Virus record (IMG/VR): IMGVR_UViG_3300009155_000266
Location: 1-23,869 of that record
Length of the DNA stretch: 23,869 nucleotides
From: a virus
Direction: 5' to 3' (one strand)
Shown: positions 4,635 to 23,802 of the stretch, piece by piece
Position numbering within the stretch: the stretch's first letter is position 1
Layout: every line of letters starts with the position of its first letter
Notes under the pieces: generated by a model
Told to the model about the DNA's origin: nothing
Databases searched by the model: none
The model's input: the letters and a program-made list of their open reading frames with translations, nothing else
Translations under genes and position numbers: made by a program

Positions 4635-4645
4635 ATTATTTGTTT

Positions 4646-5050: not shown

Positions 5051-5055
5051 ATTAT

Positions 5056-6897
5056 TTAGTTTCTTTGTATTATATGCCAATTTGTTCCGTCGCATACTAA
5101 TGTACACCATTGAGGCGTTACATTTCCAGCACTTAAAATAGGTGTTGAAGGTGAGCCACCATTTAAAGGAATTACATTAGATGCGTTACTTACAACAGTT
5201 CCACTTGCAAGGTTTTTTATCATATAAGTATTTCCAGATGTTAACGATGTTGTTAAATCTAAGGTTGTGGTTGAAAAACCGCCTGAATTAACAATAAATA
5301 CTCTATTAGTTGTAACTGCTACGCCTGCACCAGCATTTGTTGCAATAAAAAGATAATCTACTTTTAAGTTAGTTCGTGCATTTGATTCCGATGTTGCATT
5401 TGTTCCACCATTTGCAATAGGTAAAGCCGTACCACTATATGTTAAGTCTAAATTTCCAGTTGTTGTAATTGGTGAATTTGAAACAGTAAATAAAGAAGGT
5501 GCGGTTATTCCTACACTTGTAACACCAGTATTAGTTAAATTATCGTTTGTTAAATTTAATCCAGAACCGACCGTTATTTGACCAACCGCTCCACCAACTG
5601 AATTTAAACCAAGTAATCTATTTGTCCCACTTGTGGTTGATGTTAAGGTTAAACCTCCAGATGTTATTGATGCTGAAAAGGTTTTAACACCGTTTATAGT
5701 TTCATTACCTGATAACCCTACTTTTATATTTATCCTATTACTTAGGCTTACTGTATCTGCCCCTACTAATGTACCAATTGGAATTGTTTGACTACTTAAT
5801 AATCCCGTAGAACTTGCCGTAACCATGCGAGTGCCAGAGCCTGCAAGGTTTGACAATGTTGTTGCGCCTGTTACACCGAAAGTGCCATTAACATCAAGTT
5901 TATATAATGGGTTTAAATTACTTATGCCTAACCTTCCACCATCTTGATTTGCAACAACTGATATAGTAGTATCAAGATATTGCCCTAACTGTCCACCGCT
6001 GAAATTTTTAGCGGTCATTAAATATATGTCTGAGGTTCTAACATTATTTGGAAATGTAGATGTACCTGGTCTATCTGTAAATGTAATTTGAGCAGTTTGA
6101 TTTCCTTTATTATTATCTCTTTTTGCAAAATAATTTAAAATATTATAATAAAAAGTAGATGATGAACCATCGTTACTATCTTCCTGTCTATTTATTGTTC
6201 CGCTCATTGTTCCACCTGTCAACGGCAGATAACTTGTATTGTCATAAGAAATTGTTGTTCCCGTTGCTTTTACAAAACCAGTACCATTTAGCTTTAATTG
6301 AAATGTTGACGCCGCAACCCCTGACCTTAAATAATTTGTAAGCATTGAAGCCGTATCCAAAAGGTTTAATTTAGTCGCAAATCTTGTATTTAAATTAAGC
6401 AAAGACGTATCAGCCTTTCTTAAATATTTTGATAACATTAATGTAGTGTCAGATATGTTTAGTTTTAAGTTTATTCTACTGCTTAAAGATGTTGTGTCTG
6501 TATTATTATTTATTATTATCGTATCAGCATTATTAAATTTCCATCCTCCTTTAGTCTTAATGTAACTAAATAAAACATTGTTAATAGTATCAAATAGATG
6601 GTAGGCATTATTTATAGTAGAAGGTTTTAAAGCCGTTGTATCGCTTGCACGACCTCTAAACGTTAAACCATCGCCGCTGGTCTGGTAACCAAGTCTTTGT
6701 TTGTTAGAATTTGCTGGGTATTGAGCAAAAAGGCAAACTGAGAGGAATAAAAAAAGAATCGAAGGCAATGTTTTTTTGCCCCCAATCCTTTTGATTAAAC
6801 TACTCCCAATTTTGATTAAAACCTCCTGTAATAATATCTCACCGATTTTCCCTAAAGTTTTAAGGAAAAGTCTTTCTTTTTTTGGTTTGTCAATCAT
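5056..6897 (-). CDS. Tail-fiber-like protein with an N-terminal export signal
   Basis: This 613-residue protein starts with a basic, amphipathic 43-residue head. A hydrophobic signal-like segment follows (44-58, PSILFLFLSVCLFA), with a plausible signal peptidase I site at LFA/QYP. Next are QRLGYQTSGDGLTFRGRASDT, then repeats of DTxSLSxRINxK type (134-195 and 381-392), then YLPLTGGTMSGTI (223-235) and ALPIANGGTNATSESNART (491-509). The last two are well-known tail-fiber motifs. YKLDVNGTFGVTGATT (332-347) is typical of Bacteroidota fibers. A signal sequence is unusual for a virion protein. A TTG at 6768 could give a shorter form beginning at the signal. It overlaps the upstream gene by ATGA. 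Fiber call good; location uncertain. Confidence 0.78.
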   Translation of the reverse strand: MIDKPKKERLFLKTLGKIGEILLQEVLIKIGSSLIKRIGGKKTLPSILFLFLSVCLFAQYPANSNKQRLGYQTSGDGLTFRGRASDTTALKPSTINNAYHLFDTINNVLFSYIKTKGGWKFNNADTIIINNNTDTTSLSSRINLKLNISDTTLMLSKYLRKADTSLLNLNTRFATKLNLLDTASMLTNYLRSGVAASTFQLKLNGTGFVKATGTTISYDNTSYLPLTGGTMSGTINRQEDSNDGSSSTFYYNILNYFAKRDNNKGNQTAQITFTDRPGTSTFPNNVRTSDIYLMTAKNFSGGQLGQYLDTTISVVANQDGGRLGISNLNPLYKLDVNGTFGVTGATTLSNLAGSGTRMVTASSTGLLSSQTIPIGTLVGADTVSLSNRINIKVGLSGNETINGVKTFSASITSGGLTLTSTTSGTNRLLGLNSVGGAVGQITVGSGLNLTNDNLTNTGVTSVGITAPSLFTVSNSPITTTGNLDLTYSGTALPIANGGTNATSESNARTNLKVDYLFIATNAGAGVAVTTNRVFIVNSGGFSTTTLDLTTSLTSGNTYMIKNLASGTVVSNASNVIPLNGGSPSTPILSAGNVTPQWCTLVCDGTNWHIIQRN

Positions 6898-8838: not shown

Positions 8839-9016
8839 AGGTTTTTTTCTCAGGCGTGAAAATGACGTGTTGGCTAACAGATGTGGGGTTGGCATTATAC
8901 CAACCCCTTAATTCTGCTTGGGTAAAATTTCCGATAGCCTTTTTTAGTATTCCCGCTTTTCCCGTCGGGTCATTCCCGACGTAAATCATTAGCTTACTTT
9001 TTTCCCTGACTATCAT
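8792..9016 (-). CDS. Small unknown protein before the portal (74 aa)
   Basis: I do not recognise this 74-residue protein. It has IYVGNDPTGKAGILKKAIGNFTQAEL-type content split by short turns and ends in an acidic Ser-rich tail (EDDSSSSEQG). An A-rich leader (AAAATATAAA) precedes the ATG, and the tail-tube-type gene stops 10 bases upstream. A second in-frame ATG at residue 10 is possible. It overlaps the portal start by 47 bases in another frame, which is unusual in this compact block. Context suggests a minor head or neck component. Confidence 0.55.
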   Translation of the reverse strand: MIVREKSKLMIYVGNDPTGKAGILKKAIGNFTQAELRGWYNANPTSVSQHVIFTPEKKTYEPNKEDDSSSSEQG

Positions 9017-9026
9017 ATTTTATATT

Positions 9027-9575: not shown

Positions 9576-9587
9576 ATTTATTTTAGA

Positions 9588-10571
9588 TTAGTAGCCTACG
9601 CTGATTAATGAATGGTGAATATAATTTACACCCATCTTGAAACGAGCCTTAATATACACCTTTTCGTCTTTCTGGTCGTACCAAAGTTCTAAAGCCGTCT
9701 CAGGGCTTAAAACGTCTGTTGCAAGTACCTTGTTTTGTGGGGTTGTATATTCCACATAATGAGGCTTAGTTGTTCCAAGTGACGTTGCAATGTCATCCCA
9801 ACGATACTGAGGAATAACGGTTACACCTCTAAAAGTGAATTGCTCAACCCCATTAATTAACTGAAGTAAACCGTAGTCACCGCCACCGCCGTTTTCAATA
9901 TCTTCCCTTAGCTGAGAATAAACGCTTTGGGTTACATTAAACACCTTTTGGTTAGCTGGTAATCCTTTTAACTGTAAAGGCGCTTGGTCGTATACTGAAC
10001 GAAGAATTGCAAAGCCATCACCAGACGCAAGGTCTGTACCTGAGCCTGTGTTAGTTCTTGGAATTAAATCGTCTGCAACTAACTTAGGATAATAAACTGT
10101 CCAAAATCCGTCTAAAGAATCATAATTAGGGTTGTTGGAAGCCTGTGAACCAAAATAAGACAAACGGGTAATGTCATTTCTTATCGCCTGTTGCGTACGG
10201 GTTAATAAGATATTTTCAATCAATGTTCCCGAAACATCTGGAAGCCTTGTACCCGTTTTCAATAACTCCTCAAAAACTGTGTCTTCAAATTCGTCCCAGC
10301 ACATTTCAAGGTCAACCTTCATTTTTTCAACGTCGATTGTACGTTGATAAATGTCAACCGAACCAACGGGATTAAATCCGCAACCAGAATATTTTCTTAC
10401 GATATTTTCAAGGTCTTGAACGAATACCATTTTCTTTTTATTGGCGACGTTTCCAAGTACACGGAATTGTCCGCGTAAATCGTCATCAAAAAAGACTGGC
10501 TCTAAAAATATATTATTTGCCTCCGTACCTCTAAAGGATACGTCAAGTTGGCTTATTTCAACTGATGCCAT
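9588..10571 (-). CDS. Major capsid protein
   Basis: This 327-residue protein is the best candidate for the shell protein. Its length, mixed alpha/beta content and position directly after the protease/scaffold and a small partner fit a HK97-fold capsid. An N-terminal part (DLENIVRKYSGCGFNP) is followed by MCWDEFEDTVFEELLKTG, a helix with RTQQAIRNDITRLSYFG, an A-domain-like stretch (KVFNVTQSVYSQLREDI) and a C-terminal strand region (ALELWYDQKDEKVYIKARF). The ATG has the leader AAAAACAA. No N-terminal scaffold (delta) domain is present, consistent with a separate scaffold in the upstream protease gene. Confidence 0.8.
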   Translation of the reverse strand: MASVEISQLDVSFRGTEANNIFLEPVFFDDDLRGQFRVLGNVANKKKMVFVQDLENIVRKYSGCGFNPVGSVDIYQRTIDVEKMKVDLEMCWDEFEDTVFEELLKTGTRLPDVSGTLIENILLTRTQQAIRNDITRLSYFGSQASNNPNYDSLDGFWTVYYPKLVADDLIPRTNTGSGTDLASGDGFAILRSVYDQAPLQLKGLPANQKVFNVTQSVYSQLREDIENGGGGDYGLLQLINGVEQFTFRGVTVIPQYRWDDIATSLGTTKPHYVEYTTPQNKVLATDVLSPETALELWYDQKDEKVYIKARFKMGVNYIHHSLISVGY

Positions 10572-10583
10572 TTGTTTTTAATT

Positions 10584-11057
10584 TTAAAGGTTTGCGTAAG
10601 TAATCGTAGCTGTTGTATTTGTCAACTGTGCTGCCGATTCAATAATATATGAAAACTCTGTTTTTTCTACAGCCTTAGCAGTTGCAAAGAAAACCTTCCA
10701 ATCATTTGCGTGATTTAACGCGGTTGTTGAAATGTTAAATGCTGCCGAAGGCGCTGATGAAACAAAACTACCGTATGCTTCATGACCACTTTCGTCAATC
10801 AAATTAAACTTATAATAATTTGAAGCGCTTGTCACTCCGTAAATCGGTGTAACTGTAAATCTGTCACCTCCTGAGGCAATATGCCAAGTAAAGGATACAG
10901 GAATACGGTCTTCAAATGTATTAACCCCATACAATTTTTCAGCATTTATGCCGTTAACATTGGCGTAAGGGTTAGTACGATTAAGGCTATTTTGTCCGAC
11001 GTATGTGTTGGAATCAAGAAAGCCATTTACGTTCTGAGCGGTTGGATTGAATGCCAT
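10584..11057 (-). CDS. Putative head decoration or stabilisation protein (157 aa)
   Basis: This 157-residue protein is beta-rich with many Asn, Thr and Ser residues and no membrane segment. It reads NVNGFLDSNTYVGQNS at the start, then strand pairs (RFTVTPIYGVTSASNYYKFNLI) and TATITYANL at the end. I do not recognise the family. Its place between the protease/scaffold and the capsid gene is where many phages encode a capsid decoration protein. Its ATG shares one base with the protease stop (TAATG), which suggests coupled translation. Function is inferred from position only. Confidence 0.55.
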   Translation of the reverse strand: MAFNPTAQNVNGFLDSNTYVGQNSLNRTNPYANVNGINAEKLYGVNTFEDRIPVSFTWHIASGGDRFTVTPIYGVTSASNYYKFNLIDESGHEAYGSFVSSAPSAAFNISTTALNHANDWKVFFATAKAVEKTEFSYIIESAAQLTNTTATITYANL

Positions 11058-11494
11058 TATCTTTGTGAAATTTTAGATTTAACTAATGATGCAAAAGAAT
11101 CAAAAGGACTCAATTTTGCTTTTGTTTCCTGAACCTTTTCATGTTGTGAGCCTCCTGAGGGAAGTCCAACGCCTTTTTTAACTTGTGCCCTAAGTGCAAC
11201 CAGTTCATTTCCCAATGTTTCCAGAACCGTCTCAATTTCATTAATCGAGTTCTTTTGTTCATCAGACTTTTTGTACATTGATTGCATTTCTTCTTGTTGC
11301 TTAGTATGGATTGCGTCCATTTCCTCAGGTGACAATACAAAGTAACCTAAATCTTTAAGCATAGTAATAGCAACGTCGACATCATCGTTTTTAGGTTCTG
11401 CTGGCATTACTCCAGGGTCTTGCATAACATCTTGGACTTTATCTTCAGTACTGTTAAGCAAATTTTTAATTTTTTCTAAAATGGAATTACCCAT
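11057..11494 (-). other. Possible nested scaffold protein within the protease gene
   Basis: An in-frame ATG at codon 315 of the protease gene is preceded by AACAAAAAAGAAGATGAC, the A-rich leader type that precedes other starts here. It would give a 145-residue coiled-coil protein, comparable to the lambda C/Nu3 arrangement in which the scaffold is the C-terminal part of the protease gene. The long form is certain as an open frame; separate expression is inferred. Confidence 0.35.
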
Positions 11495-12436
11495 GTCATC
11501 TTCTTTTTTGTTGGTTATTAATAATGCAGCTGGGACATTTAGAAATTTGCTTAGGCTATTTTGCAACGGTAATAAATCAATATTTTTTTCGCCAACTTTT
11601 ACAATTTCATCAATGAAACCAAACTCTAATGCTTCTTGTGCGGTCATCCATGTTTCAGCCGCCATCATTTTTGTGATATTTTCTTTAAGGTTATTCTGGT
11701 ATCCTTTACGCTTATAAACCGATGCGGTATAAATGTCCAATAACTTTGCTTCCATCTTATCCAATAATTCAGCCGTTGCCTCAAGTTCGTCGGCGTTACC
11801 CATCGTATAACTCCAAGGTCTATGAATCATTAAAAAAGCGTTCTCAGTCATTTTCACTATATCCGCCGACAAAAGTACAACCGTTGCAATGCTTGCTACC
11901 AAGCCGATTCCTGTTGCCGTTGTTTCATTTGGGTAGTTGGCAATTAAATCAGCGATTCCCATTCCTTCGGTGACTGAACCACCACCAGACGAAATAACCA
12001 AGTTAATTTCCTCACCCTTTGCGTCATTAATTTTACTTCTTACCGAATTATAAGAATTAACAGATTCCGAAATTTCCCCTAAAATATCAATATTAAATTT
12101 TGCCATCGCTTTGCTTTCCTTTTCCCTTTCAATCTTTTTAAACTTTGCCTCAGCCCAAACCTTCATCGCACTTCCACCCCAGGCATCATACATGATTGAG
12201 CCGCATATTTCATTCCCATCTTCGTCAAAATATTTGCCCTGGTCATACGTTTCCGCGCGTGAAAGAAAACTGTATGTTCTTTGTACAGTATCTTCACTTA
12301 AGCCTTCGCCGTTTGCGATTTGGTTTGCTCTTAACCAGCCTACACGCGTTCCACATGAAGAGCCATTGTCCTTCTTATGATTTAACGCCTTCCTTGCGTT
12401 ATTTTTTGCCGTGTCTGGATAATCAGCGTAAGTCAT
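11057..12436 (-). CDS. ClpP-like head maturation protease with N-terminal phage domain and C-terminal scaffold-like region
   Basis: This 459-residue protein has three parts. Residues 8-105 (ARKALNHKKDNG, CGTRVGWLRANQIANGEGLS, GSIMYDAWGGSAMKVWAEAKF) form a domain often joined to phage head proteases and capsid proteins. Residues 112-285 are a ClpP-like S14 protease: Ser182 in GLVASIATV, His205 in LMIHRPW and Glu261 in AAETWMTAQEAL at the place of the catalytic Asp, a swap common in phage members. Residues 315-459 are acidic and coiled-coil rich (helix 340-420), as expected of a scaffold. The protease would cut scaffold and itself during prohead maturation. An internal ATG at 11494 could yield the scaffold alone. 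Confidence 0.85.
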   Translation of the reverse strand: MTYADYPDTAKNNARKALNHKKDNGSSCGTRVGWLRANQIANGEGLSEDTVQRTYSFLSRAETYDQGKYFDEDGNEICGSIMYDAWGGSAMKVWAEAKFKKIEREKESKAMAKFNIDILGEISESVNSYNSVRSKINDAKGEEINLVISSGGGSVTEGMGIADLIANYPNETTATGIGLVASIATVVLLSADIVKMTENAFLMIHRPWSYTMGNADELEATAELLDKMEAKLLDIYTASVYKRKGYQNNLKENITKMMAAETWMTAQEALEFGFIDEIVKVGEKNIDLLPLQNSLSKFLNVPAALLITNKKEDDMGNSILEKIKNLLNSTEDKVQDVMQDPGVMPAEPKNDDVDVAITMLKDLGYFVLSPEEMDAIHTKQQEEMQSMYKKSDEQKNSINEIETVLETLGNELVALRAQVKKGVGLPSGGSQHEKVQETKAKLSPFDSFASLVKSKISQR

Positions 12437-12445
12437 AAGGTAAAT

Positions 12446-12799
12446 TTATTTATTATTATTTTTCTTATTCCTTTTTTTGCTGATTGCATAGCCAAACGAC
12501 TCAGGGTGTTGAATCATGTTATATACCGTTTTCTCGCTTAATCCAGTTCGAATGCTAATATCTAAAATAGCATTCATCTTGCTTTCATTTTCAAATAAGG
12601 AAGCTGGATACAATTCCATAACCATAAATTTAGCAATGGTTAAATCTTTGATAACATTGGTTTGATATAAGAAGTCAATAAGGGTATAAAAGTCTGGTGT
12701 TATATTATCCTTATCGCACAATGCTTTGAATTTTTCTAAGATGCTTTCTTGAAATTCAATTAATAATTCCTTATCAATGTTATTTTTCTCATTGTTCAT
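12446..12799 (-). CDS. Small unknown protein (117 aa)
   Basis: I do not recognise this 117-residue helical protein. The C-terminal part (ISIRTGLSEKTVYNMIQHPES) resembles a helix-turn-helix, followed by a Lys/Asn tail (KKRNKKNNNK). It could bind nucleic acid or be a virion assembly factor. It overlaps the upstream 87-residue gene by 11 bases in the +1 frame, with no slippery heptamer in view, so ribosome reinitiation is more likely than frameshifting. It lies between the tape measure and the head protease. Confidence 0.6.
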   Translation of the reverse strand: MNNEKNNIDKELLIEFQESILEKFKALCDKDNITPDFYTLIDFLYQTNVIKDLTIAKFMVMELYPASLFENESKMNAILDISIRTGLSEKTVYNMIQHPESFGYAISKKRNKKNNNK

Positions 12800-13052
12800 C
12801 GCGCCAAAATTGTACTATTTGCCTCATTTTTCCAACTACCTTTGTTCTGCACGCTGGGCAATTTCTTCGCTCAGGCTCATAGTTGTTTACAAAATTATTG
12901 TAAATCTGGAATAAATAATCCATATCCGACGGGTCAATGGATAAAACCCTGTAAGTTCTGTCAACTGTTGCCATGACTTGCTCCTTATATTCCTGAGGTA
13001 TGCGAATTGCAAGTTCCCCCCAAATTGAATTTCCTTTCATACAATTACACAT
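12789..13052 (-). CDS. Small Cys-containing unknown protein (87 aa)
   Basis: This 87-residue protein begins MCNCMKG and has CPAC near residue 69, so two Cys pairs could hold one zinc ion. The middle (YRVLSIDPSDMDYLFQIYNNF) is helical, and the end KVVGKMRQIVQFWRD is another helix. Similar small proteins with a C-terminal CxxC(R)xKV motif are familiar to me from Bacteroidota phages, with no assigned role. It begins immediately after the tape measure stop (TAA then ATG). Position next to the tape measure is compatible with a tail assembly accessory function, which is inferred. Confidence 0.62.
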   Translation of the reverse strand: MCNCMKGNSIWGELAIRIPQEYKEQVMATVDRTYRVLSIDPSDMDYLFQIYNNFVNNYEPERRNCPACRTKVVGKMRQIVQFWRDEQ

Positions 13053-16000
13053 TTATAAAGTTGCTTTTACTTTTAGTTTATTCCCCTCAGCCAAATCCCT
13101 TGCAATGTCATCCGAAACTACATAAGCCTGAAGCCTATCAATGCGATTATTAATTGCATCCGTCTTTGCCTCAATAACTTGTAAAAAGTTGCTTAAATCA
13201 TTGTTGCCTGATATACCTTGTATTGGTGCAGAAATCGGAGGAACCATGCCACCCTCCGCAAAACCTTTTATACCAATCTTTCTAAACGTCGGAGATCCGC
13301 CTAATAAACTTTGCTGCCTTTGATTTAATACAACCTCACCGCGTTTAACATAAGCAAGGACGTTGTCACCGTTTGACCGTGTTGGAATATTTTGTTTTTG
13401 ATTGACCCTTTGCCCTGTTACGACGCCACCTTCGGCAAGGGGTTGGGCGGCTATCGTTGCAATTTGTGCGGCTGATGCTATTGCCGTAGGAATGGCAAGT
13501 AAAAATGAACCTTGAGCCAATGCTTTTTGAAAAGCCAAAGCGCCTTGAATGATTGCTTGAATTAATGCAATCTTCTTTTCATCTTTTGCTGCTTTTATTC
13601 TAAGGGCTTCAGCTTCGGCTTGTTGTTGCTCAAGTAATAACTTTTGATTTGCTATATCCTTTTCAATCCTTTTCTTTCTTAACCCCGATGCCTTTTCAGC
13701 CTTTGCTTCAAGTTCTGCAATATTGTTTTCCGTGTTGGTTATCTGTTCGTTTATAGCCTCGGCTTCCTTTTGCGCCCTTGCCTGTTGGAAGGTAGAAATT
13801 ATATCGGTCACCGAAAGAATAGAATCGCTAATTGAATTAATTAATTCTTGAGTATTTGCTTTTTTATCTTCTAACTTTTTTTTGTCAATTTCTTTTAATT
13901 TTTCAGCCGCCTCTTCTTCATTTTTAATATTTTCTTGATTTGCTTTTTCAATGTCATCAAAATTCTTTCGGTAAACATTGACCTCCTCTTTTGATAAAGC
14001 TTGTTTGCTTTTATTAAAATTAGCTTCGGCATTTTGTCTTTCAACAATCAAGTTTTCAGCCTCTTTACTTCCAGTCTTTTCAAGGGCTAATAAAGCATTT
14101 ATTCTTTGAACCTCTGCATTATAATCCTCATCTAAAATAACACGGCGATTGTTAATGTTTTCAATCTCATCTTCAGTTGTGGTTTGCTTTGAACGTGCAA
14201 GGTTAATGACAGACTGAGCAACTTTAAAATTTTGGTTAATTTCATCAATGGCAATCCTTTTCTTTTCTTCGTCTGACTTACCAAGTATTTCGTTCTGGGC
14301 ATCAACCGCCGTTTTAATCTGGGCGTTGACCTCGTTTAATTTTACCGCCAATTCCTTTTGAGTTCCAGAACCAACCACGGCTTCGCCAAATGCCTTTTGT
14401 AATTTACTTTGTTCTTCCTGTAATTTTGCCAATGAGCCATCAACAAAGGACTTTGCAAGTTTTTCCCCAGTTTTTTTGCCCGTTGTAGTTACTATTGGGT
14501 CAGGTTTAAATTTTTCTAATTCGGATTCAATGCCTTTTATTTCTTCGCCTAATCTTTTATAATCAGCGCTACCAAACAATGTTATTTTTCTTGCATTTCT
14601 TTTTTCAGCTAATTTTTGCTCTAAACCCGATTGAGTTCCTAAAAGTGCTTTTGCAAGTGAAGCTTGTCTTTTCTTTTCTTCTTCTTCTGTTTTTTTATTT
14701 ATAAGTTCTATTTCTTTATTACCATTTTTTATTTCACTATTAAATACTTTAAAAAATGATAAAACAGACCCCTCAGGTTTTGTAAATTCGGCAAATGCTT
14801 TTTTATAAGCGCTTAATCGATTTGGTACTTGTTCAAAATATCTTAAAACATTTGATAAAACATTATTTAAAAATATCTTTCCTTTTGCAGTTGCAATTTC
14901 AAATTCAACACCAGTATTTGCAAGTATTTCATTATACCCCTTTTCACTTTCCTCAAGTTGTTTATTAACGTTATATAATTCTTCTTGTTGCTTTTGATAT
15001 AGTGTTGTTGATAATGTGACATCTTCTGTACTTTTTAAAACTTCACCTAATGTAAAAATATAATCAACACCAACATCTTCGCCTCCAGATTTAAAAACAT
15101 CTGCAATTACAGTTTGCAGTTGAGTGCCAGCAACTCCAGTTTCTTTTAATTTTTCTGTTATTAAACTGAAAGCTTGCCCAGATGTAACCGAACCATTATT
15201 TATATTAGCAAAAAGTTGATTTGTAAACTGTTCGCCAAAAGCCCCAATTAAAGCATCTTTTGAACTTTTTGTTTGCTCCCTAATTGATTCACCAAAAAAT
15301 TTAACAATATCTAAACCTTTATTTGAAAATATCCCTTCGTTTGCCGCAGAAATAGAAACTCTTAAAAAATCTTCTGCACTTAATCCAGCGTCTCTAAATT
15401 GAACTGAAAATTCTTTTAAATTATCTAAATATTGACCTTGAGCGTCTGCGCCTTTTCGAAAACCAATTTCAATTAAATCAAGTGCTTGAGGAAAAGATAA
15501 ACCTAAAGCCTTGCTTGCACTATTTGCAGCTATTACAATTTCGTCAACATCTTTTTTATATGTGTTTGCTATCGCTTTACTTTGCGCAACCGTATTTTGT
15601 AAAGCGTCACCAGTTAACTCAGTAAAATTTTGAACCTGAGCCGATAAGCGTCTTGTTTCTTCTACTCCAACGCTGATGCTTTGAAATATTTCGCTTATGG
15701 CACTAAATGCAGTTAAGGCAATGCCAATAGCACCTAAACCAATATTTAAAGCACCTGTCGTTTTGCCAAGTTGAGTAATTCCCATTGACATTCCACCAAT
15801 AGCGCCTGTAACCTGTCCTAATGTTCCGCTTAACTTAGGAAAAAAGTTTGATAACGCCTCGGTATAACCACCGACATTCCTTTGGAATTGCCCTACGGTT
15901 GCGTCTATACCCTTTAATCTTTTGTCTAAAGCCCCGATTGATACTAATAAATCCTTTGCCTCCTGAGTGTTATCCTGTTGAGCGGCTGCTAAATCTTTGT

Positions 16001-16301
16001 ATCTTTTTCTTTGGTCATTTAATTCCTTTGATAAACGTCGATATGCCCCTTCGCTTTTATCGATGCCCGCTATCTCTTCTTTCCTTAACTTAACTTGTTC
16101 CCTTGTAACATCGTTAACCAATGATTGAGCCGCTTTTAAATCGACTAACTTTTTTTCAAGTTTCTTAATTTCGTCAACGTCTGCGGTCTTTTTTAACTCG
16201 GCGTTTAACTCAGCTATCTGCCTTTTTAGTTGTGTTGCCGTTTCAATCGTTCCCGCTAAACCTTCTATCTGAATTTTAAAACCAATTACCTTTTCAGCCA
16301 T
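13053..16301 (-). CDS. Tail tape measure protein
   Basis: This 1082-residue protein is by far the longest product. Residues 15-150 are coiled coil (TATQLKRQIAELNAELKKT). A Gly/Ala-rich hydrophobic stretch follows at about 160-205 (GTLGQVTGAIGGMSMG), then a phage_MIN/TMP-like region with VQNFTELTG, and long coiled coils at about 530-900. A hydrophobic part (IALIQAIIQGALAFQKAL..LLAIPTAIASAAQIAT) precedes the typical C-terminal motifs AEGGVVTG, GDNVLAYVKRGEVVLN and GFAEGGMV. It would set tail length and leave the tail during DNA injection. I see no lytic domain inside it. It shares one base with the 71-residue gene upstream (TAATG). Confidence 0.93.
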   Translation of the reverse strand: MAEKVIGFKIQIEGLAGTIETATQLKRQIAELNAELKKTADVDEIKKLEKKLVDLKAAQSLVNDVTREQVKLRKEEIAGIDKSEGAYRRLSKELNDQRKRYKDLAAAQQDNTQEAKDLLVSIGALDKRLKGIDATVGQFQRNVGGYTEALSNFFPKLSGTLGQVTGAIGGMSMGITQLGKTTGALNIGLGAIGIALTAFSAISEIFQSISVGVEETRRLSAQVQNFTELTGDALQNTVAQSKAIANTYKKDVDEIVIAANSASKALGLSFPQALDLIEIGFRKGADAQGQYLDNLKEFSVQFRDAGLSAEDFLRVSISAANEGIFSNKGLDIVKFFGESIREQTKSSKDALIGAFGEQFTNQLFANINNGSVTSGQAFSLITEKLKETGVAGTQLQTVIADVFKSGGEDVGVDYIFTLGEVLKSTEDVTLSTTLYQKQQEELYNVNKQLEESEKGYNEILANTGVEFEIATAKGKIFLNNVLSNVLRYFEQVPNRLSAYKKAFAEFTKPEGSVLSFFKVFNSEIKNGNKEIELINKKTEEEEKKRQASLAKALLGTQSGLEQKLAEKRNARKITLFGSADYKRLGEEIKGIESELEKFKPDPIVTTTGKKTGEKLAKSFVDGSLAKLQEEQSKLQKAFGEAVVGSGTQKELAVKLNEVNAQIKTAVDAQNEILGKSDEEKKRIAIDEINQNFKVAQSVINLARSKQTTTEDEIENINNRRVILDEDYNAEVQRINALLALEKTGSKEAENLIVERQNAEANFNKSKQALSKEEVNVYRKNFDDIEKANQENIKNEEEAAEKLKEIDKKKLEDKKANTQELINSISDSILSVTDIISTFQQARAQKEAEAINEQITNTENNIAELEAKAEKASGLRKKRIEKDIANQKLLLEQQQAEAEALRIKAAKDEKKIALIQAIIQGALAFQKALAQGSFLLAIPTAIASAAQIATIAAQPLAEGGVVTGQRVNQKQNIPTRSNGDNVLAYVKRGEVVLNQRQQSLLGGSPTFRKIGIKGFAEGGMVPPISAPIQGISGNNDLSNFLQVIEAKTDAINNRIDRLQAYVVSDDIARDLAEGNKLKVKATL

Positions 16302-16516
16302 TATATTTTTATTTTATTAATGACATCCTTCAAGTATGCCATATTAATAATATATTCATCGTTTTGTAAAACACCGCGTACCAAATTTAAATGAATTATG
16401 GAAGCCTTTTGAGCAAGATAAAACACGCGCCCTGTTTCCTCGATTTCATCATCAAGAATAAAGGTTGAATAAAATTCAAGAAATACCTTTTTGCCCAATG
16501 CTTCTTTGTCTTCCAT
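16301..16516 (-). CDS. Small unknown protein before the tape measure (71 aa)
   Basis: I do not recognise this 71-residue acidic helical protein (LEFYSTFILDDEIEETGRVFYLAQKA has that character; seen in pieces). It sits directly before the tape measure gene and shares one base at each end with its neighbours (TAATG at 16516 and 16301). In many siphoviruses the slot before the tape measure holds tail assembly chaperones, but this protein is shorter than usual for that class and shows no frameshift partner. Tail-related function is inferred from position. Confidence 0.6.
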   Translation of the reverse strand: MEDKEALGKKVFLEFYSTFILDDEIEETGRVFYLAQKASIIHLNLVRGVLQNDEYIINMAYLKDVINKIKI

Positions 16517-18951
16517 TATCCTTTTGTTACACCGTTTACAACTACCTCATAATTTGCCCCGTCATAATGGGTATCTACATTTATACCAATGGTTGAGCCA
16601 CTAATTATATATTGTACCGTTGGTATTAACTTTTGTCCGTTCATAAATACAAGTACATTTGCATTCGTGTTGCTTACCTGAGTGATACCAGAATTAGGCG
16701 CAAGCACCAAAACGTTTGTCATTGAATTTAAGAACGGAGTGTAAGATAATTGGATATTCACCGTTGCCCCATTTGCACCTACTAAGCCGCTACCTGAGCC
16801 TGTTACCGTTCCACTTTGAGGCGAAGCCCCAGCAAGTGTAATCGTATTGACAACTTTTGTTAAATCATTTGTATTTGGTTTTTCATCGTAAAGCAAAACC
16901 GTTTTCGCTGGACTATTGGATTTTGGATTGTATTCCAAACTTTGTATAATAAAGTTCGATGAACCAATGATTCCTTTGCGCCTAAATGAAAGTTGCGTTA
17001 TATCTTTTGGTTTCCATTTGGCAAATGTCGTGTAAACTTTACCAAGTTCAATGCGCTTGTAAGTTTGTAAATGAAAGGTTTTAAAAACGCCTTGCATTAC
17101 GTTCGTATAATTAGTAACCTCGTCCGAAAAGGATAGGTTAAAATCCGCACCGCTTGGGTCATTGTAATTTACCATGAAGGCGGCTGGAAAATCAAAAGCC
17201 GAAGCCGCTGAAGTTGTTTCGTCGAACAATCTTATTTTACCATCTAAGCCCGCACGCCTTCCAGCGTAATAAAGCAAACGAGGTGCAAGGTTATAATTTG
17301 GTTCGGCGTCCGTCACCGTATTATAATCATCACCAAATACTAAAGGCATTTGTGCCCCGTATGTTCCTCCCGTGGTAATAGTAACGTCGTTTATATGGAT
17401 TGCTTTGGCAAAGAAATTTGTATATATAAATTCAATACCATTTTCAAATCTGTCAGTTGGGAAATTGTAGCCTCCTGAATAAATATTTACCCCGCGTCTT
17501 TCTTCTTCCTTGTTTGTCGTATCGTCGTCCGTGGCGTATGCCAAAACCTGACTTGATTTATAACCGTCTAAAACTTGAAAGTCTGAGCCATCAACGTCGC
17601 GGACATTTAAATCATACTTGTTTGAGGCTTTAAAGAAGCCGTCAAAACTTGTAATGCTTGCCGCTCCCGTGCTATTTGCCCGATACCTGATTGTATAATC
17701 GTCCTTTGGGTAGGCGTAAACCTGTCGATTTAATACGTCTGTCTCCCATGCAAGATTAAAAATGGTTGTAAGGTCTGCTATTATATCCCTTGCATACCAT
17801 GAAATAGGGATAATATATTGCAAGTTTACAATTTCACCCGTTTCCAATCCCTCTTTTTCTGCCACAATTGACAAAGAACCAGCAATAGAAAGGTTAAAAG
17901 ATACATTTTCATATCTTAATCTAAGTTTTACGGTATCATTTGCAACCAAATCACCCAGAAATTCAAGTGAAATTGAATCATTTAAGGATGTTTCATTCGT
18001 TAAATCATAGGTTGAAACGTTGTTTCCATTAACTTCAAAGAACAAAATAAGCTCCGCAAATTGGTTTATATCTCCAATAGTAGCCGTTAACGTTACATTT
18101 AACTCAGCTATTAACTCGTATAAAGCATTTATCGGGACAGTGTAAGTTCCCCCAGTATAATTTCCCCCTGTATCAAAGTTTGGTGAAGTTGTTTCGTCTG
18201 TAAATGTAATGTCAACCGTTCCATTTTCTCCCGCTGACTTGGTAAAGGTTGAAGGCGAAGGGTTGGAAGCCCTGAGATTTACAAAGTCTTTTATATAATC
18301 CGCATCAAGGTTAAGACCCATTGGAATAATCAAACGATTAAACGGGTCTGTCTTAAAAATACTGTTTAATTGATAACCTTTGTCTTTAAAAGCCTTTTCC
18401 AATATCTGCCAAATAAAAATAGCTGGGGTTAACTCATTGTATAAAATATAGGTTTCGTTTTCCCATGCCTTCCACTTCATTAAAATAAAACAATACTCAG
18501 CCGTAACAGGGTTGTAATTTGCCTTAACCGTTGTTTCGCTTACCTCGATTGTTGACCAACCTAAATCCCTTACTAAAATATTTCCCACGTCTGCAAACCA
18601 ATCGGCATTGTTTCCAATCAATGATACTTTAAAATTGGCTGCAACAAAACCAGAATTAATCGCTTGTAAATCTGCACCCTCTAACCTTGCTTTTCCTGTT
18701 AGTATTGGCACACCATCGACTTCAAGTCTTGCTGACAATAACTTGTAAGCATTGGTTACAATTGCACCAGCATCGGTTATGTTTTGAAATATATTTACGT
18801 TTGTCTTTGTTGCTGGAAGAGTCACATTTCTTTTAGAATGCGCACCCGATATATTGCCTAATTCAATATTCTCAATCGAATAATCAATTGTTACATTGAC
18901 CTCATTTTGGTTTAAATCTACTTCTTGACCGCCTATAAATAATTTTATCAT
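16516..18951 (-). CDS. Large tail-tip / baseplate-like protein
   Basis: This 811-residue beta-rich protein begins LFIGGQEVDLNQNEV, then SGAHSKRNVTLPATKTN and LEVDGVPILTGKARLEG, a pattern I associate with tail-tip hub proteins of Bacteroidota phages. The middle contains LIAELNVTLTATIGD-type strands and RGVNIYSGGYNFPTD. The C-terminal 110 residues end in VLVFMNGQKLIPTVQYIISG and YDGANYEVVVNG, a small repeat-fold module often at fiber or hub ends. It overlaps the upstream gene by ATGA and the downstream small gene by one base. It probably forms the tip below the tape measure. Exact role (Tal-type hub or fiber holder) not resolved. Confidence 0.65.
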   Translation of the reverse strand: MIKLFIGGQEVDLNQNEVNVTIDYSIENIELGNISGAHSKRNVTLPATKTNVNIFQNITDAGAIVTNAYKLLSARLEVDGVPILTGKARLEGADLQAINSGFVAANFKVSLIGNNADWFADVGNILVRDLGWSTIEVSETTVKANYNPVTAEYCFILMKWKAWENETYILYNELTPAIFIWQILEKAFKDKGYQLNSIFKTDPFNRLIIPMGLNLDADYIKDFVNLRASNPSPSTFTKSAGENGTVDITFTDETTSPNFDTGGNYTGGTYTVPINALYELIAELNVTLTATIGDINQFAELILFFEVNGNNVSTYDLTNETSLNDSISLEFLGDLVANDTVKLRLRYENVSFNLSIAGSLSIVAEKEGLETGEIVNLQYIIPISWYARDIIADLTTIFNLAWETDVLNRQVYAYPKDDYTIRYRANSTGAASITSFDGFFKASNKYDLNVRDVDGSDFQVLDGYKSSQVLAYATDDDTTNKEEERRGVNIYSGGYNFPTDRFENGIEFIYTNFFAKAIHINDVTITTGGTYGAQMPLVFGDDYNTVTDAEPNYNLAPRLLYYAGRRAGLDGKIRLFDETTSAASAFDFPAAFMVNYNDPSGADFNLSFSDEVTNYTNVMQGVFKTFHLQTYKRIELGKVYTTFAKWKPKDITQLSFRRKGIIGSSNFIIQSLEYNPKSNSPAKTVLLYDEKPNTNDLTKVVNTITLAGASPQSGTVTGSGSGLVGANGATVNIQLSYTPFLNSMTNVLVLAPNSGITQVSNTNANVLVFMNGQKLIPTVQYIISGSTIGINVDTHYDGANYEVVVNGVTKG

Positions 18952-20156
18952 AACTGGGCGGTTGGTTTATTTGGATAGGTAATTTCAAAAGATAACTCAA
19001 TGTCTGTTGTCCTATTGTTGTCCGTCAATGTTTCAGCGTTTGAAATAGTTACATTGACATATTTACCATTCTCAATGACGTAAACCTCAGGGGAATAAAA
19101 CATTGAGGCAATGTAAACCGCGTCCTCATGCGGAATACTGCATTTAACTTGCTTTCTTTTGTTTACCCTTTGATTTGTCTTTATAATTGTTTTATCATAA
19201 CTGTTTGCGCGTGGATTAGTTACTACACTCCACGGCTGCGATATGTTTATTATATCCGCATTGGCGTTTTGTAAGTCTTGAATCAAGCCGCGAAATTGAT
19301 AACTTTCTGCACCTCCATATTTACCGAACCAAAATAAGTCAATGTTATTATTGCAATTTGGCTCAAGGAAAATCTCAATGCTTTCTGAACGCTGCGTATA
19401 ACTTCCATCGTAATAACCAACGGAAACCGAATAAAAATTGTACGCACTTGACGAGGCTGGGAAATTACCCATGTGAAAGACTGCGGTACTTCCAAAGATG
19501 TTAGCCGCACCAACGGACAAAGAATATAAGTCATTGTTAGCTGAGGAAACAACAAAGTCAACAATCGTCTCCGCGCTTGACCCTGACTTAGTATAAAATT
19601 GAAACCTTCCAGCGTTTACCCCTTTGCCAACAAATGAAAGAAATATATTCCCATCCTCATTGCATCGCCTGTCTTGGTTATTTGTGGTAAGGAATTTAAA
19701 AGGATTTGCCGACGGTTGATAAAAGTCGCTTAGATTAAAGTCGTTATCGTCCCCGTAAAACTGTGAAGGAATAACAAAACCCGTGGAACTAAATTGACTT
19801 GCCGTTGATGTAACAAGGAAACCCGCACTACTTACCGTTTGGTTCTTTGATACGCAATAGACTGACTTTATAACATCCGTGTTATTTGTCAAGGAATAAG
19901 TATCAAGCGTTCCAAAGAAACTTGTCTTTGACCCCGTTAATGGCGCAACGTCGGAGTAAAGGAAGCTTTGGATATTGGTATCAAATACCGCGCTGCTTCC
20001 ACTTGTTCCCGTCTGAGCCGCTAAGAAAGACCCTGCAAGGCTGCCACCAACGTAAACATCGATTTGTTGCTGAACCACCGCTGAAGGCTCAATGCTGCGA
20101 TAAGATACAGGATAAAGAAGGCTTGATAATGTGTCTGGGTTTATCGTGTAACTCAT
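18948..20156 (-). CDS. Tail protein, distal-tail-type candidate
   Basis: This 402-residue beta-rich protein carries many Ser, Asn and aromatic residues. The core (LFWFGKYGGAESYQFRG, then KTNQRVNKRKQVKCSIP and EVYVIENGKYVNVTISN) is of the sort encoded beside the tail hub in Bacteroidota siphoviruses. It has no signal or membrane segment. It overlaps both neighbours by 4 bases (ATGA at 20153-20156 and at 18948-18951), so it is made together with the large tail-tip protein. I place it in the tail tip from position and composition; no family domain is recognised with certainty. Confidence 0.55.
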   Translation of the reverse strand: MSYTINPDTLSSLLYPVSYRSIEPSAVVQQQIDVYVGGSLAGSFLAAQTGTSGSSAVFDTNIQSFLYSDVAPLTGSKTSFFGTLDTYSLTNNTDVIKSVYCVSKNQTVSSAGFLVTSTASQFSSTGFVIPSQFYGDDNDFNLSDFYQPSANPFKFLTTNNQDRRCNEDGNIFLSFVGKGVNAGRFQFYTKSGSSAETIVDFVVSSANNDLYSLSVGAANIFGSTAVFHMGNFPASSSAYNFYSVSVGYYDGSYTQRSESIEIFLEPNCNNNIDLFWFGKYGGAESYQFRGLIQDLQNANADIINISQPWSVVTNPRANSYDKTIIKTNQRVNKRKQVKCSIPHEDAVYIASMFYSPEVYVIENGKYVNVTISNAETLTDNNRTTDIELSFEITYPNKPTAQL

Positions 20157-20683
20157 CTGTTTAATATTGATTTGTAATAACTTTCAATCGTTGCCTCAAC
20201 GCTAAAGGTAATGGCATTCTCGATTAACTCAATGAACTTTGGACTATTTTTGTCCAATGCTATTTCTATAAAGCCCGTTCTTCTTCCCGTCTTTGAATGC
20301 TTGATAACACTATTCTTTGTTGGCATTCCTTCTAATTTATGCTTTGATGCAATCGCAAAAGCAATACCCTTAGCCTCTTTGTCGCTTTTCCCCATTCGCC
20401 TTTTGACGTAATCAATTAAGCCGTCAATGTACTTACTTGTTTTTCTTCCGCTGTTTGGGTAATATGGTATCTTGTTTGAGGGCACACCTTCATTATTTAT
20501 CGCCATGTAATCAGGAACAAGCCCCTCAATGACAAGCGTATTAATTTCAAACTTTACAAGGGTTTCCATTTGCTTGACGGCTGAACCTGATAACTCATGA
20601 CCCTGTGCCCGCCATTCATTGGCAACCACGGTAATCGCTAAAAGGCTAATGTCATCCGCTAACTTTTGTAAACTTGCATCCAT
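20153..20683 (-). CDS. Morphogenesis-type protein (176 aa), function uncertain
   Basis: This 176-residue protein is helical at both ends with a basic middle (PNSGRKTSKYIDGLIDYVKRRMGKSDKEAKGIAF, seen as motifs SGRKTSKY and KRRMGKSDKE). It then has HSKTGRRTGFIEIAL and a C-terminal helix. The overall shape recalls HK97 gp10-like tail completion or virion morphogenesis proteins, but I cannot confirm it. The leader before its ATG is TTATTTATTCCT, poorer in A than elsewhere, and directly follows a UUCG hairpin. It overlaps the next gene by ATGA. Confidence 0.55.
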   Translation of the reverse strand: MDASLQKLADDISLLAITVVANEWRAQGHELSGSAVKQMETLVKFEINTLVIEGLVPDYMAINNEGVPSNKIPYYPNSGRKTSKYIDGLIDYVKRRMGKSDKEAKGIAFAIASKHKLEGMPTKNSVIKHSKTGRRTGFIEIALDKNSPKFIELIENAITFSVEATIESYYKSILNR

Positions 20684-20695
20684 AGGAATAAATAA

Positions 20696-20715
20696 GGTAA
20701 CCCCGAAGGGCTACC
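20696..20715 (-). terminator. UUCG-loop hairpin between fiber genes and tail-tip genes
   Basis: On the - strand GGTAGCCC pairs with GGGTTACC over 8 bp (one G-T) around a TTCG loop closed by C-G, an extra-stable RNA tetraloop. It begins 6 bases after the stop of the 130-residue gene and is followed by TTATTTATTCC, T-rich but broken. It could terminate a share of transcripts or stabilise the upstream 3' end. Confidence 0.5.
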
Positions 20716-20721
20716 GTGTTT

Positions 20722-21114
20722 TTAATCTATTCTAATTGTAAGCTGAGAAGCATTAAATTTAACTTCATCACCAATAGCTATTGATTTCCCAGTTCCTAAA
20801 GCACCGTAAAACAATAAATTACCAGATGTGGAATTGTCAAAAATACCAAAATTATCGGCACTTGTAGCACTTGAAGCCGCCGTTACAATAGTAATTGCAG
20901 CCGTGTTGGAAATAGTTGCCGTTGCTCCCGTGGTTGTCGTCCAACCGCCAGCGTTTACGGCAATACGAGAATACAAGCCCGTACCACCAAGACCCGTTTC
21001 GGTTGGCGACCCGTTAAACAATTGCACCCATGTAGCCGAAGGCTGAGTTGGGAACGCACCGCCGTTGACCCAGTCGAGAATCTCGTTCTCTAAATAATTT
21101 GAAAATGCACTCAT
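20722..21114 (-). CDS. Short tail-fiber-type protein (130 aa)
   Basis: This 130-residue protein follows a pattern common to many phage tail-fiber-associated proteins. It starts with SNYLENEILDWV and then has TWVQLFNGSPTETGLGG. LYSRIAVNAGGWTT, SNTAAITIVTAAS and NFGIFDNSTSGNLLFYGAL follow, ending in a GDEVKFNASQLTIRID strand pair. These proteins usually lie among receptor-binding or tail-tip genes. No signal or membrane segment. The family pattern is strong although the biochemical role of these proteins is not settled. It lies just upstream of the UUCG hairpin. Confidence 0.72.
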   Translation of the reverse strand: MSAFSNYLENEILDWVNGGAFPTQPSATWVQLFNGSPTETGLGGTGLYSRIAVNAGGWTTTTGATATISNTAAITIVTAASSATSADNFGIFDNSTSGNLLFYGALGTGKSIAIGDEVKFNASQLTIRID

Positions 21115-21131
21115 TTATAAAGTTTTTAACG

Positions 21132-21536
21132 TTAAAAATTTATTTCTTCCCAGTTGCCTATTTCCTCATTCCATCTGTACATTTTGCCATCATTTGGATA
21201 AGGTATAGGTGATTGCCAAAGGCAATTTTGTTCGTTCAATGTCCAAGAAGGAAAATGTTTTGGTGGGATAAAAGCATCCCTTATGCTATCGTAATAATAA
21301 CCTATTCCAGCATAGTTTTTTCTAAATGCCTTGCTTTGGTCTTGGCTTGGCGTGTTGTTGTCGGCTTGGTAATGAATGCCGCCACGGGTGTTGTAAGAAG
21401 TGCGTTTAGCAACGCAATTAAACATTAAACCATAATGTTTTTCGGTATCGTTACCATTAAATGTACATACTTCATCTGCACCACTTATAACAGATGTAAC
21501 AAAATTTTCATTATTTAAAAGTGCGTAATGTGCCAT
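21132..21536 (-). CDS. Fiber-associated protein of a type common in marine phages (134 aa)
   Basis: This 134-residue protein opens AHYALLNNENFVTSVI and contains TSYNTRGGIHYQ, then FRKNYAGIGYYYDSIRDAF and IPPKHFPSWTLNEQNCLW. It ends with PIPYPNDGKMYRWNEE and a Trp. This is a recurring small virion protein of cyanophages and other aquatic phages, function unknown, usually near tail fibers. I set the start at the ATG at 21536, one base after the stop of the 754-residue gene. A longer in-frame ATG at 21593 would add 19 residues that overlap that gene and do not fit the family. Confidence 0.7.
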   Translation of the reverse strand: MAHYALLNNENFVTSVISGADEVCTFNGNDTEKHYGLMFNCVAKRTSYNTRGGIHYQADNNTPSQDQSKAFRKNYAGIGYYYDSIRDAFIPPKHFPSWTLNEQNCLWQSPIPYPNDGKMYRWNEEIGNWEEINF

Positions 21537-21537
21537 A

Positions 21538-23802
21538 TTATGAGAATGTAACTGTTCCAGAATTTCTAATTTCTCTAATACTAAATGTGCCATCGGTATA
21601 ACTTACTGCATCTGTTTGCGCACCACCAGCCAATGTAATAGTAGCTGAACTTGTTAACCATCTAATTATAAATACTCCTTTACCACCTTTACCACCAGCT
21701 ACATTCACTGTAAATGCATATCCTCCGCTACCGCCTCCTCCTAAATAGTCAGTACCATTATTTCCAATACCATCTTGAGTATTAGGACTTGAAGCACCAC
21801 CTCCTAAACCACCTAATCCGCCAGTTGTTGTATTATTACCACCACCACCACCACCTCCAGCGTAATAAGGTGTAGGTAAAACTCCTGTAATTGTATTTTG
21901 TAATCCATTGCCGCCATTACCTCTACTTACTGCACCTACACCAGCAGTTCCAACTGCACCAGCACCACCACCTCCACCACCTTCATCATTAGTTGAACCA
22001 TTACCACCATTATTTCCTTGTCCGCTTGTTGCTATTCCACCAGATTTAACAGTTGATGTACTTGTACCACATCCACCTCCACCTGAACCACCATTACCTC
22101 CAGCACCAGTTGTTCCAGCACCACCACCACCACCACCAACAGCAGCTGTTCCTAATGCACTAAACGATGAATTAGTACCGATTTGTCCATTTGCTTCAGC
22201 AACACCAGCCGTTCCACCACCACCAACAACTATGTTATATGTAGTATTTTTGTTAATACTTAAACCCGTTCCAGTCAAATAACCGCCAGCACCACCAGCA
22301 CCACCGCCACCATTTGGTGCATTACCAGTTCCAGCAGCACCACCGCCACCAGCGACTACAAGGTAATCAACTGTTACAGTTGTAGCAGCCACATACAACG
22401 TCGCATTCGTCACCGTTGCCGCTCCCGTTACACTTGCCGATACATTGTCAGCCGTTGTTATTGTTGCAGTTGTTGTTCCTTGACCCGTTATACTTGCCGA
22501 CATTGTTGCCGCTCTAAATAAATCAGCGTTTACCACCTTTGCCGTTGCCTCGATACTCGCGTTAAACGTAATACCAAAATTAGCTTCCGCGGAACTATTC
22601 GCCGTTGCCGTGGCTTGTGCAGTTATAATCCTTGTAATCTGAGCCTCCGAACTTGTTTGAGCCGTTGCCGTGGCTTGTGCAGTTACAGGGATAGTAATCT
22701 GTGCTTCGGCTGAAGTTGTAACTGAGGTATCAACTGAACTTGATAAAGATATTACCCTTTGGATATTTCCATCGCTAACCCCTGAACCAATGACAGATGC
22801 GAATAATAACTTGCTTAAGATTATTTGGCTTTGGGTAGTTGCTTGACCGATGCTTATCGCCTCTAATGTTCTTATAACGAAGAGTAACCCAGTTACCGCC
22901 CCTGTTCCTGTTACGTTTGCTTCGCATTGTACTATTCCCTTAGTTGTTACATCTAAATTCGCATTTACATTTGCCGTGCCCGTTGCTGAACCCGTGTTAA
23001 ATATAGTCAGGTTTATGTTCCCAGATACTTGACCCGTGGCGTTTAATTCACCAATGATATTAATCGCCCTTTGGACTTCTGCCTGAGCCGTTGCCGTTGC
23101 TATTGTAGTTGCAGATACATTTTTGACCCTAACAATGTCACCCGATGCCAATGCAAAAGCGGTGACCGATGCGTCAACCTCAATTATATTTTGCTGCCCT
23201 GTTACTATGAAACCCGTTGCCGTGGCTTTGCATTCAACAAAAGCCGATACAGAAGTTTTAAGAAATATATTTGCCTGACTTGTTCCTGTTGCAATAGCAT
23301 TACCAACCACTTCGATAATCCTTTGAACCTTAACTTCGCAATTAGTTGGAACTACTAAATTAAAATTTATTTGAACGGTCACTAACCTTTGAATGCCAAC
23401 AAAGGAATCAAAAGTAAATTGAGGCGCTTCAGGAATAAATAAATAATTTGGTAATATTGACTGTTTAATAAGATTTAAACGCTGAATAAAAGCCGTTGCA
23501 TATTGTTGCAACGCTGCCCACTTATCTATCTGTAAAGTGAGATCCGAATCGCCTTCGTTATCATAGCCTAATAAATCATCAAAGAATAATGTTACTTGAT
23601 ACGTGTCCTGTTTCCTTGTTTGGTCTGACCCTGTAATTGTTGGCACGGAAAAGAATACTCGTGGGAATGCGTTTAACTCCTGAAAATCTTCTGTGTTTCC
23701 TTGTCGTACACGGTCTGAAGCCCAGCCAAAATTGTAGCTTTTTATCGCCTCAATGTCACCCGCGGTGTCTTTAAAAACGTCACTTATCTCCCGTATATTC
23801 AT
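21538..23802 (-). CDS. Tail protein fused to repeat fiber and glycine-rich adhesin domain
   Basis: This 754-residue protein has three regions. Residues 1-155 are a mixed alpha/beta domain (VFKDTAGDIEAIKSYNFGW, RVFFSVPTI, TYQVTLFFDDLLGYD, then NFNLVVPTNCEV) that resembles small tail-completion proteins of Bacteroidota phages. Residues 156-478 are about 15 degenerate repeats of roughly 20 residues of type ATATAxxSSEAxITxI. Residues 479-714 are glycine-rich, opening VDYLVVAGGGGAAG and closing GKGVFIIRW, the pattern of phage Gly-rich tail adhesins. A short tail (GTFSIREIRNSGTVTFS) ends it. It likely projects from the tail and binds the host. Its ATG shares one base with the preceding stop. Confidence 0.78.
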   Translation of the reverse strand: MNIREISDVFKDTAGDIEAIKSYNFGWASDRVRQGNTEDFQELNAFPRVFFSVPTITGSDQTRKQDTYQVTLFFDDLLGYDNEGDSDLTLQIDKWAALQQYATAFIQRLNLIKQSILPNYLFIPEAPQFTFDSFVGIQRLVTVQINFNLVVPTNCEVKVQRIIEVVGNAIATGTSQANIFLKTSVSAFVECKATATGFIVTGQQNIIEVDASVTAFALASGDIVRVKNVSATTIATATAQAEVQRAINIIGELNATGQVSGNINLTIFNTGSATGTANVNANLDVTTKGIVQCEANVTGTGAVTGLLFVIRTLEAISIGQATTQSQIILSKLLFASVIGSGVSDGNIQRVISLSSSVDTSVTTSAEAQITIPVTAQATATAQTSSEAQITRIITAQATATANSSAEANFGITFNASIEATAKVVNADLFRAATMSASITGQGTTTATITTADNVSASVTGAATVTNATLYVAATTVTVDYLVVAGGGGAAGTGNAPNGGGGAGGAGGYLTGTGLSINKNTTYNIVVGGGGTAGVAEANGQIGTNSSFSALGTAAVGGGGGGAGTTGAGGNGGSGGGGCGTSTSTVKSGGIATSGQGNNGGNGSTNDEGGGGGGAGAVGTAGVGAVSRGNGGNGLQNTITGVLPTPYYAGGGGGGGNNTTTGGLGGLGGGASSPNTQDGIGNNGTDYLGGGGSGGYAFTVNVAGGKGGKGVFIIRWLTSSATITLAGGAQTDAVSYTDGTFSIREIRNSGTVTFS
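21838..21855. repeat. ACC trinucleotide run (six units)
   Basis: Six perfect ACC units on the + strand encode part of a polyglycine tract in the adhesin (about residues 650-655). Change of unit number would keep the frame. Confidence 0.9.
22120..22137. repeat. ACC trinucleotide run (six units), second site
   Basis: Six perfect ACC units on the + strand encode a second polyglycine tract of the same adhesin (about residues 556-561). Other shorter CCA/ACC runs lie nearby. Confidence 0.9.
22601..22720 (-). repeat. Two 60-base direct repeats in the fiber region
   Basis: The first 25 bases of each 60-base unit (22601-22625 and 22661-22685, starting GCCGTTGCCGTGGCTTGTGC) are identical. The rest has diverged, with a shared TAATCTG at the same offset. 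Each unit encodes 20 residues containing TAQATATA. It is the best conserved pair in the longer repeat array and points to recent tandem duplication. Confidence 0.85.

Follow-up and report, generated by a model that had tools for sequence, protein, structure and literature searches.

A putative tail terminator joined to a repeat rod and a variable tip in a single gene of uncultured phages

The window analysed here, a viral DNA record of 23,869 bases, carries on its minus strand an open reading frame for a 754-aa protein (21538..23802) that joins parts resembling a tail terminator, a rod and a tip. A head domain with a tail-terminator-like fold (residues 1–155; 23338..23802) is followed by a rod of about 16 lengths of 20 aa in which strands are drawn about every 10 residues (residues 156–477; 22372..23337), a Gly-rich tip matching Pfam PF21722 (residues 478–715; 21658..22371) and a C-terminal end of 39 residues beyond the Gly-rich domain (residues 716–754; 21541..21657), all on the minus strand. 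The frame was confirmed to be present and open, and a fused frame of this kind is likewise uninterrupted in 24 further viral contigs, which encode 17 distinct proteins (18 including that of the window); a stop codon is present in 23 of the 24, the frame of the remaining one, L021, running off its contig. An assembly artefact as the source of the fusion is ruled out by these 24 fused relatives. In PHROGs, the 754-aa protein matches an unnamed phage family, phrog_2295, over residues 171–734, that is, the rod and tip. The whole fusion protein had no tblastn match in 50,697 annotated phage records (E limit 0.001), megablast of window positions 13053–23802 returned no match among annotated phages, and a search of genome contigs gave none either. 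The AF2 model of the full-length fusion (pLDDT 42.9) was left out of all claims about fold.

The gene order in window 5056–23802 is terminase, terminator, genes for proteins of 176, 402 and 811 aa, tape measure, protease, capsid, tube, portal, connector and fibre. Tail genes precede head genes in this arrangement, which is shared by Elizabethkingia phage TCUEAP1 (MN732896). The names of the terminase, protease and capsid proteins come from search results; those of the portal, connector, tube, tape measure, holin and amidase are putative, read from the sequences, with an order that agrees with TCUEAP1. In the head maturation protease (11057–12436), an N-terminal part that matches a different phage family (phrog_2859, residues 7–108) is fused to a ClpP-like domain. 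Upstream of the terminase in contig L026 lie genes for proteins of 369 aa (1379–2488) and 334 aa (4302–5306), which we take to resemble a sugar aminotransferase and a glycosyltransferase, respectively. The best annotated relatives of the terminase are from Riemerella, Nonlabens and Bacteroides phages, with up to 46% identity, and include one record labelled Shigella phage Henu10; because of these relatives the host is presumed to belong to the Bacteroidota, which phages of this uncultured group probably infect.

The first-pass annotation had taken residues 1–155 for a separate tail protein, and both the extent of the domain and its predicted structure bear this out. The boundary of the head is sharp at C155, the point at which stand-alone relatives end. 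A model of the head was built from 19 sequences (pLDDT 61.6, pTM 0.56). In a Foldseek search of the PDB, terminator or neck entries of lambda (gpU), Mu, R4C, Douge and A-1(L) rank first, with T5 p142 and the pyocin collar lower in the list; the best match has an E of 2.5e-3 and a probability of 0.99, none reaches 1e-3, and the 50 rows include unrelated proteins, such as a de novo design at rank 8 and kinase domains. When the head was aligned on the Foldseek candidates with VIA-align, the phage Chi neck gave a Z of 10.4, T5 p142 10.3 and the lambda tail cap 10.1. Forty-four of rows 1–47 (Z 10.4 to 7.0) have titles that refer to neck, connector, collar, cap, terminator, tail or virion assemblies of phages, tailocins or related machines, and for many rows the title names the assembly rather than the aligned chain; named terminators within these 44 rows include those of T5 (p142), lambda (Z 9.8), Mu, T1, R4C and T4 (gp15). 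The other three rows are 4acv (Listeria antigen B), 2gjv and 2l25 (titled by accession only), and the T5 paper (PMC11784142) treats the first two of these as terminators. The first clearly unrelated row has a Z of 6.7. Far from being unrelated to tail proteins, a finding that would have spoken against the earlier description, the head gives structure matches of terminator type, and by its fold it looks like a tail terminator, in a model of modest confidence.

Structure searches of a viral library extended this picture to longer proteins. The head matches 96 viral models at E up to 1e-3; the best 50 of these 96 include one named tail completion protein and ten models of 393–1035 aa, within which the search does not give the position of the head match, and three of these ten have names that refer to collagen repeats (two) or to an SO2946-like C-terminal domain (one). 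In phiCD508, VIA-align places the head on residues 1–132 of a 272-residue chain. At the level of sequence, searches of Pfam, PHROGs, NCBIfam and the PDB gave no named terminator family for the head, the best PHROG match being an unspecific virion structural protein (E 0.016). No tblastn match was found in the 50,697 annotated phage records for the head (E limit 1) or for one divergent head from the relatives in which it is a stand-alone, or plain, gene (E limit 0.1). The _4 protein of TCUEAP1 has no sequence likeness to the head despite the shared gene order, and a comparison with gp42 of Nonlabens phage P12024L gave nothing. The head gene is single-copy and lies within the structural gene block: one head was found per record in all 11 examined (five plain and five fused contigs of 36–41 kb, and the window).

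The rod is periodic, though less strictly than first described. Autocorrelation of residues 156–478 at lag 20 stands well above plain shuffles (z = 7.6) and was matched by 0 of 1000 parity-preserving shuffles, on which tests an origin of the repeats by chance was rejected. Even lags exceed odd lags in this region (mean −0.11 vs −0.64), the pattern expected of β-strands. The 322 residues amount to about 16 unit lengths, of which the unit finder could assign only 11 clearly; unit starts are 20 to 45 residues apart, and a fixed 20-residue register therefore holds only locally. AF2 draws regular strands about every ten residues of the rod, rather than the coil of a disordered repeat, at a confidence (pLDDT 27–44) too low to evidence a fold. 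Shorter rods among the relatives measure near 90, 111, 131, 150 and 170 aa, in steps of about 20, which we use descriptively only, since periods of 19 and 21 rank above 10 and 20 in a scan of rod lengths. A pore-forming toxin suggested by NCBIfam for residues 363–484 (14 bits vs a cut-off of 380) was rejected as a chance match.

Glycine makes up 38% of residues 478–715, and Gly_rich_2 (PF21722) matches residues 468–715 with an E of 1.5e-14 and 55 bits, above the Pfam gathering cut-off of 24.3, in agreement with the Gly-rich tip domain of the first-pass annotation. Gly-rich tips of this kind are common on phage fibres. Four tip classes, under names that we presumptively assigned from motifs and recall (Gly-rich, LamG-like, DADAxAFF and propeller-like), occur on one head type; among 8 fused relatives searched against Pfam, one gave Gly_rich_2, one LamG-like tip an arabinofuranosidase fragment and the propeller-like tip DUF6923 repeats, with nothing above cut-off for the other five. 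One base after the stop of the fusion begins a small gene (21132..21536, minus strand) for 134 aa, counted from the internal Met20 of a 153-aa ORF, with an assignment to phrog_7759 that covers the window's small gene alone. Small gene and tip class correspond in 23 of the 24 loci that can be read (Gly-rich 9/9, LamG-like 10/10, DADAxAFF 3/4, propeller-like 1/1), counts that include near-identical contigs, as the distinct fused proteins number 18 with the window. On a neighbour tree of 23 fused contigs the tip class and the small gene each change 8 times. A further gene, of GP80 type (20722..21114, minus strand), encodes 130 aa of family PF23140 (podophage GP4 fibre I; PDB 8jou_a, E 7e-9); it is present in 23 of 23 fused loci where readable, and tblastn found it absent from 34 plain loci and 10 plain half-contigs. 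According to the LSH1 phage paper, 8JOU_g, another chain of that entry, is a fibril joining an adhesin to the GP4 tail nozzle collar.

Relatives were collected in three ways. The 24 contigs found by a head scan are all fused, close relatives with a separate head were found by a terminase scan, and a scan with both head kinds yielded 65 loci. In 34 of these the head is a stand-alone gene of 151 aa in the same gene order, and in 24, to which the window is added, it is fused to a rod and tip (493–756 aa, one cut by its contig). Four loci (L208, L211, L212 and L213), here called form C, have a different domain of about 95 aa at the same junction, and three (L216, L218 and L059) are too cut to be classed; because the initial scan that found fused loci used their head and the one that found plain loci used the terminase, these frequencies are not a census. 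The proposed union of a structural tail part with a rod and tip is upheld in all 24 fused relatives (one cut at the start of the tip), and the suggested comparison with relatives uncovered the separate version of the head in 34 of the 65 loci. The extra domain of form C is similar to the C-terminal end of the 811-aa protein encoded in the window (19/36 residues, E 4e-11, in a single comparison). In the plain form, the head gene and a 176-aa gene that follows it share 7 bases in 10 of 10 maps, and in the fused form the rod, the tip, usually the small gene, and the GP80-type gene come between the two. This 176-aa gene (20153..20683, minus strand), which directly follows the stand-alone terminator in plain phages, has a short match in TCUEAP1 _5, over 34 columns; comparison with gp43 of Nonlabens phage P12024L gave nothing, and neither the 176-aa gene nor form C had a tblastn match in the 50,697 annotated phage records (E limit 0.1).

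The main structural genes come in the same order in the maps of five fused and five plain contigs, barring small ORFs and tape-measure lengths; the marked differences are at the terminator locus and at the locus of the fibre gene that follows the connector. Fused heads are 74–97% identical to the head of contig L026, even where the adjacent 293-aa genes are only 54–58% identical, and plain heads are 43–47% identical to it though neighbour genes reach 97%. A head tree of 42 rows places fused and plain heads on opposite sides of one branch (support 100), with a single label change. On a tree of five neighbour genes, which includes 39 of the 42 contigs (L060, L014 and L021, with too few genes, were dropped), 7 changes of the allele label are needed, of which starred branches force 6, compared with a mean of 12.6 for shuffled labels. 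The label is more clustered than when shuffled, and part of the pattern is thus descent; since the two head clades are nevertheless scattered over the neighbour tree through 7 switches, the alleles are exchanged as a block. From these sequence comparisons, we suggest that recombination puts the fused block in the place of the plain terminator allele.

The second marked difference concerns another fibre gene, located after the connector (613 aa in the window; 5056..6897, minus strand), which is shorter in fused than in plain phages where readable. In each of the 14 fused contigs examined, out of 25 fused records counting the window, its product measures 575–944 aa and no second fibre gene follows. 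Among plain contigs, the fibre measures 1028–1226 aa in the five complete ones (G008 and G032 being near-copies), is cut by both contig ends in G009 (530 and 1038 aa) and is cut in five others; of the six plain contigs that can be read at this point, five have a second fibre and G009 lacks it. Fibre length agrees with the allele in 4 of 4 independent pairs (p 0.125) and the second fibre gene in 3 of 4 (p 0.25), a coupling that is not significant, as four pairs cannot reach significance. There is a hint here, by analogy with what is reported for lactococcal decorations, that the adhesins may substitute for each other. The fibre of this locus, the second fibre and the gene of about 200 aa that follows have signal-peptide-like starts (for example, ending FAQ), which is odd for virion fibres (window 5056–6897; L129–L134).

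We think it likely that the fused gene encodes a tail terminator with an accessory, swappable adhesin grafted onto its last residue, and an adhesin carried by the tail terminator would place fibres at the neck. This reading draws on the fold similarity of a modest model, the two alleles at one locus, the block exchange, the linkage of tip and small gene, and the single head per contig. The 155-aa head would form an oligomeric ring capping the head-proximal end of the tail tube, and the C-terminus of each subunit would run into a strand-rich repeat rod ending in an exchangeable tip, such that, with one rod per subunit, fibres would stand out at the neck. Tips of the Gly-rich, LamG-like, DADAxAFF and propeller-like classes may hold the virion to sugars of host or environmental surfaces, with the small gene providing a tip-specific partner, perhaps a folding helper or cap, and the GP80-type protein a further putative fibre part; the adhesin would then work like lactococcal neck-passage fibres on another anchor. 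By analogy, the sheath-contacting domains of larger terminators and the phiCD508 alignment suggest that a C-terminal extension can lead outward, making an outward exit of the rod plausible; a result from T5 argues the opposite, as a C-terminal tag on its terminator led to aberrant polymers and may fold into the lumen (PMC11784142).

The fusion could instead be a precursor, cut after residue 155 into an ordinary terminator and a free fibre that docks elsewhere, at the baseplate or capsid. The plain allele ends at the same residue, and a free head is thus sufficient, and a protease gene is present in the window (11057–12436); however, the residues after C155 pass straight into the repeats and differ between relatives, and separate genes would serve the same end, so we hold such processing to be unlikely. 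It is similarly improbable that the head shares only the terminator/tail-tube fold and anchors a fibre, for example at the tail tip, with another protein serving as the terminator. The modest confidence of the head model would allow for this, as would the superimposable domains of tail tubes and terminators described in PMC11784142, but entries for necks, caps and terminators lead the structural matches, the plain allele encodes nothing beyond its 151 aa and so has no fibre to hold in place, and the 10 contigs and the window contain no second head homologue, a search that an unrelated terminator would escape. An ordinary modular tail fibre with a fibre-specific N-terminus, to which the Pfam Gly-rich tip (PF21722) and the match of rod and tip to the unnamed family phrog_2295 would be suited, is very improbable, as the terminator likeness would have to be a coincidence in spite of the structure matches and the plain allele at the same site.

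If a terminator does carry the adhesin, a protein essential for assembly also serves to display an exchangeable adhesin, and receptor-binding fibres could stand at the neck of a long-tailed phage without a separate collar protein. Form C, at the same residue, and the long viral structure matches suggest that the arrangement may have arisen several times, and we give even chances to the broader idea that the terminator C-terminus is a general docking place for accessory neck adhesins. If the terminator reading is right, terminator genes would also be worth searching for concealed adhesins in phages known from metagenomes, and the occurrence of both alleles among close relatives amounts to a natural experiment on the role of neck fibres.

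In known examples the terminator is a hexamer closing the tail tube on the side of the head, and some larger terminators have additional domains touching the sheath (PMC11784142). Like lambda gpU, SPP1 gp17 and T5 p142, the protein examined here has the terminator-like fold over the whole head, with a stand-alone allele of 151 aa and one copy per contig; unlike known terminators, its fused allele adds about 340–600 residues of rod and tip. Among the matches listed in a literature search covering titles, the starts of abstracts and few subscription papers, none describes a terminator–adhesin fusion. Cyanophage A-1(L) has neck fibres with a distal carbohydrate-binding module, which showed no binding to the host tested (PMC10966104). 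The likeness lies in fibres at the neck with a distal module, a neck location that is predicted here from the genes, and the difference is that the A-1(L) fibres are three separate proteins (gp80–82) docked on a gp5 pentadecamer rather than on the terminator. Fibre I of GP4 (gp80, 8jou_a), which is a podophage, is of the same family as the 130-aa gene of the fused block. We know of no link of this fibre to a terminator. A counterpart in function may be the neck passage structure (NPS) of lactococcal 936 and P335 phages, proteins of about 500–900 aa whose first ~180 aa are nearly identical and whose remainder falls into seven groups with carbohydrate-binding modules; they are optional (73 of 113 phages) and tend to exclude other decorations (PMC6669499). 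Judging from sequence, a conserved N-terminus with exchangeable C-terminal modules appears to be common to both, here as four tip classes on one head. The NPS has a BppU-like collar domain and is encoded by a gene of its own, non-essential in TP901-1, whereas here the anchor would be the terminator itself. An optional neck adhesin with swapped tips is thus a class of function already known from NPS.
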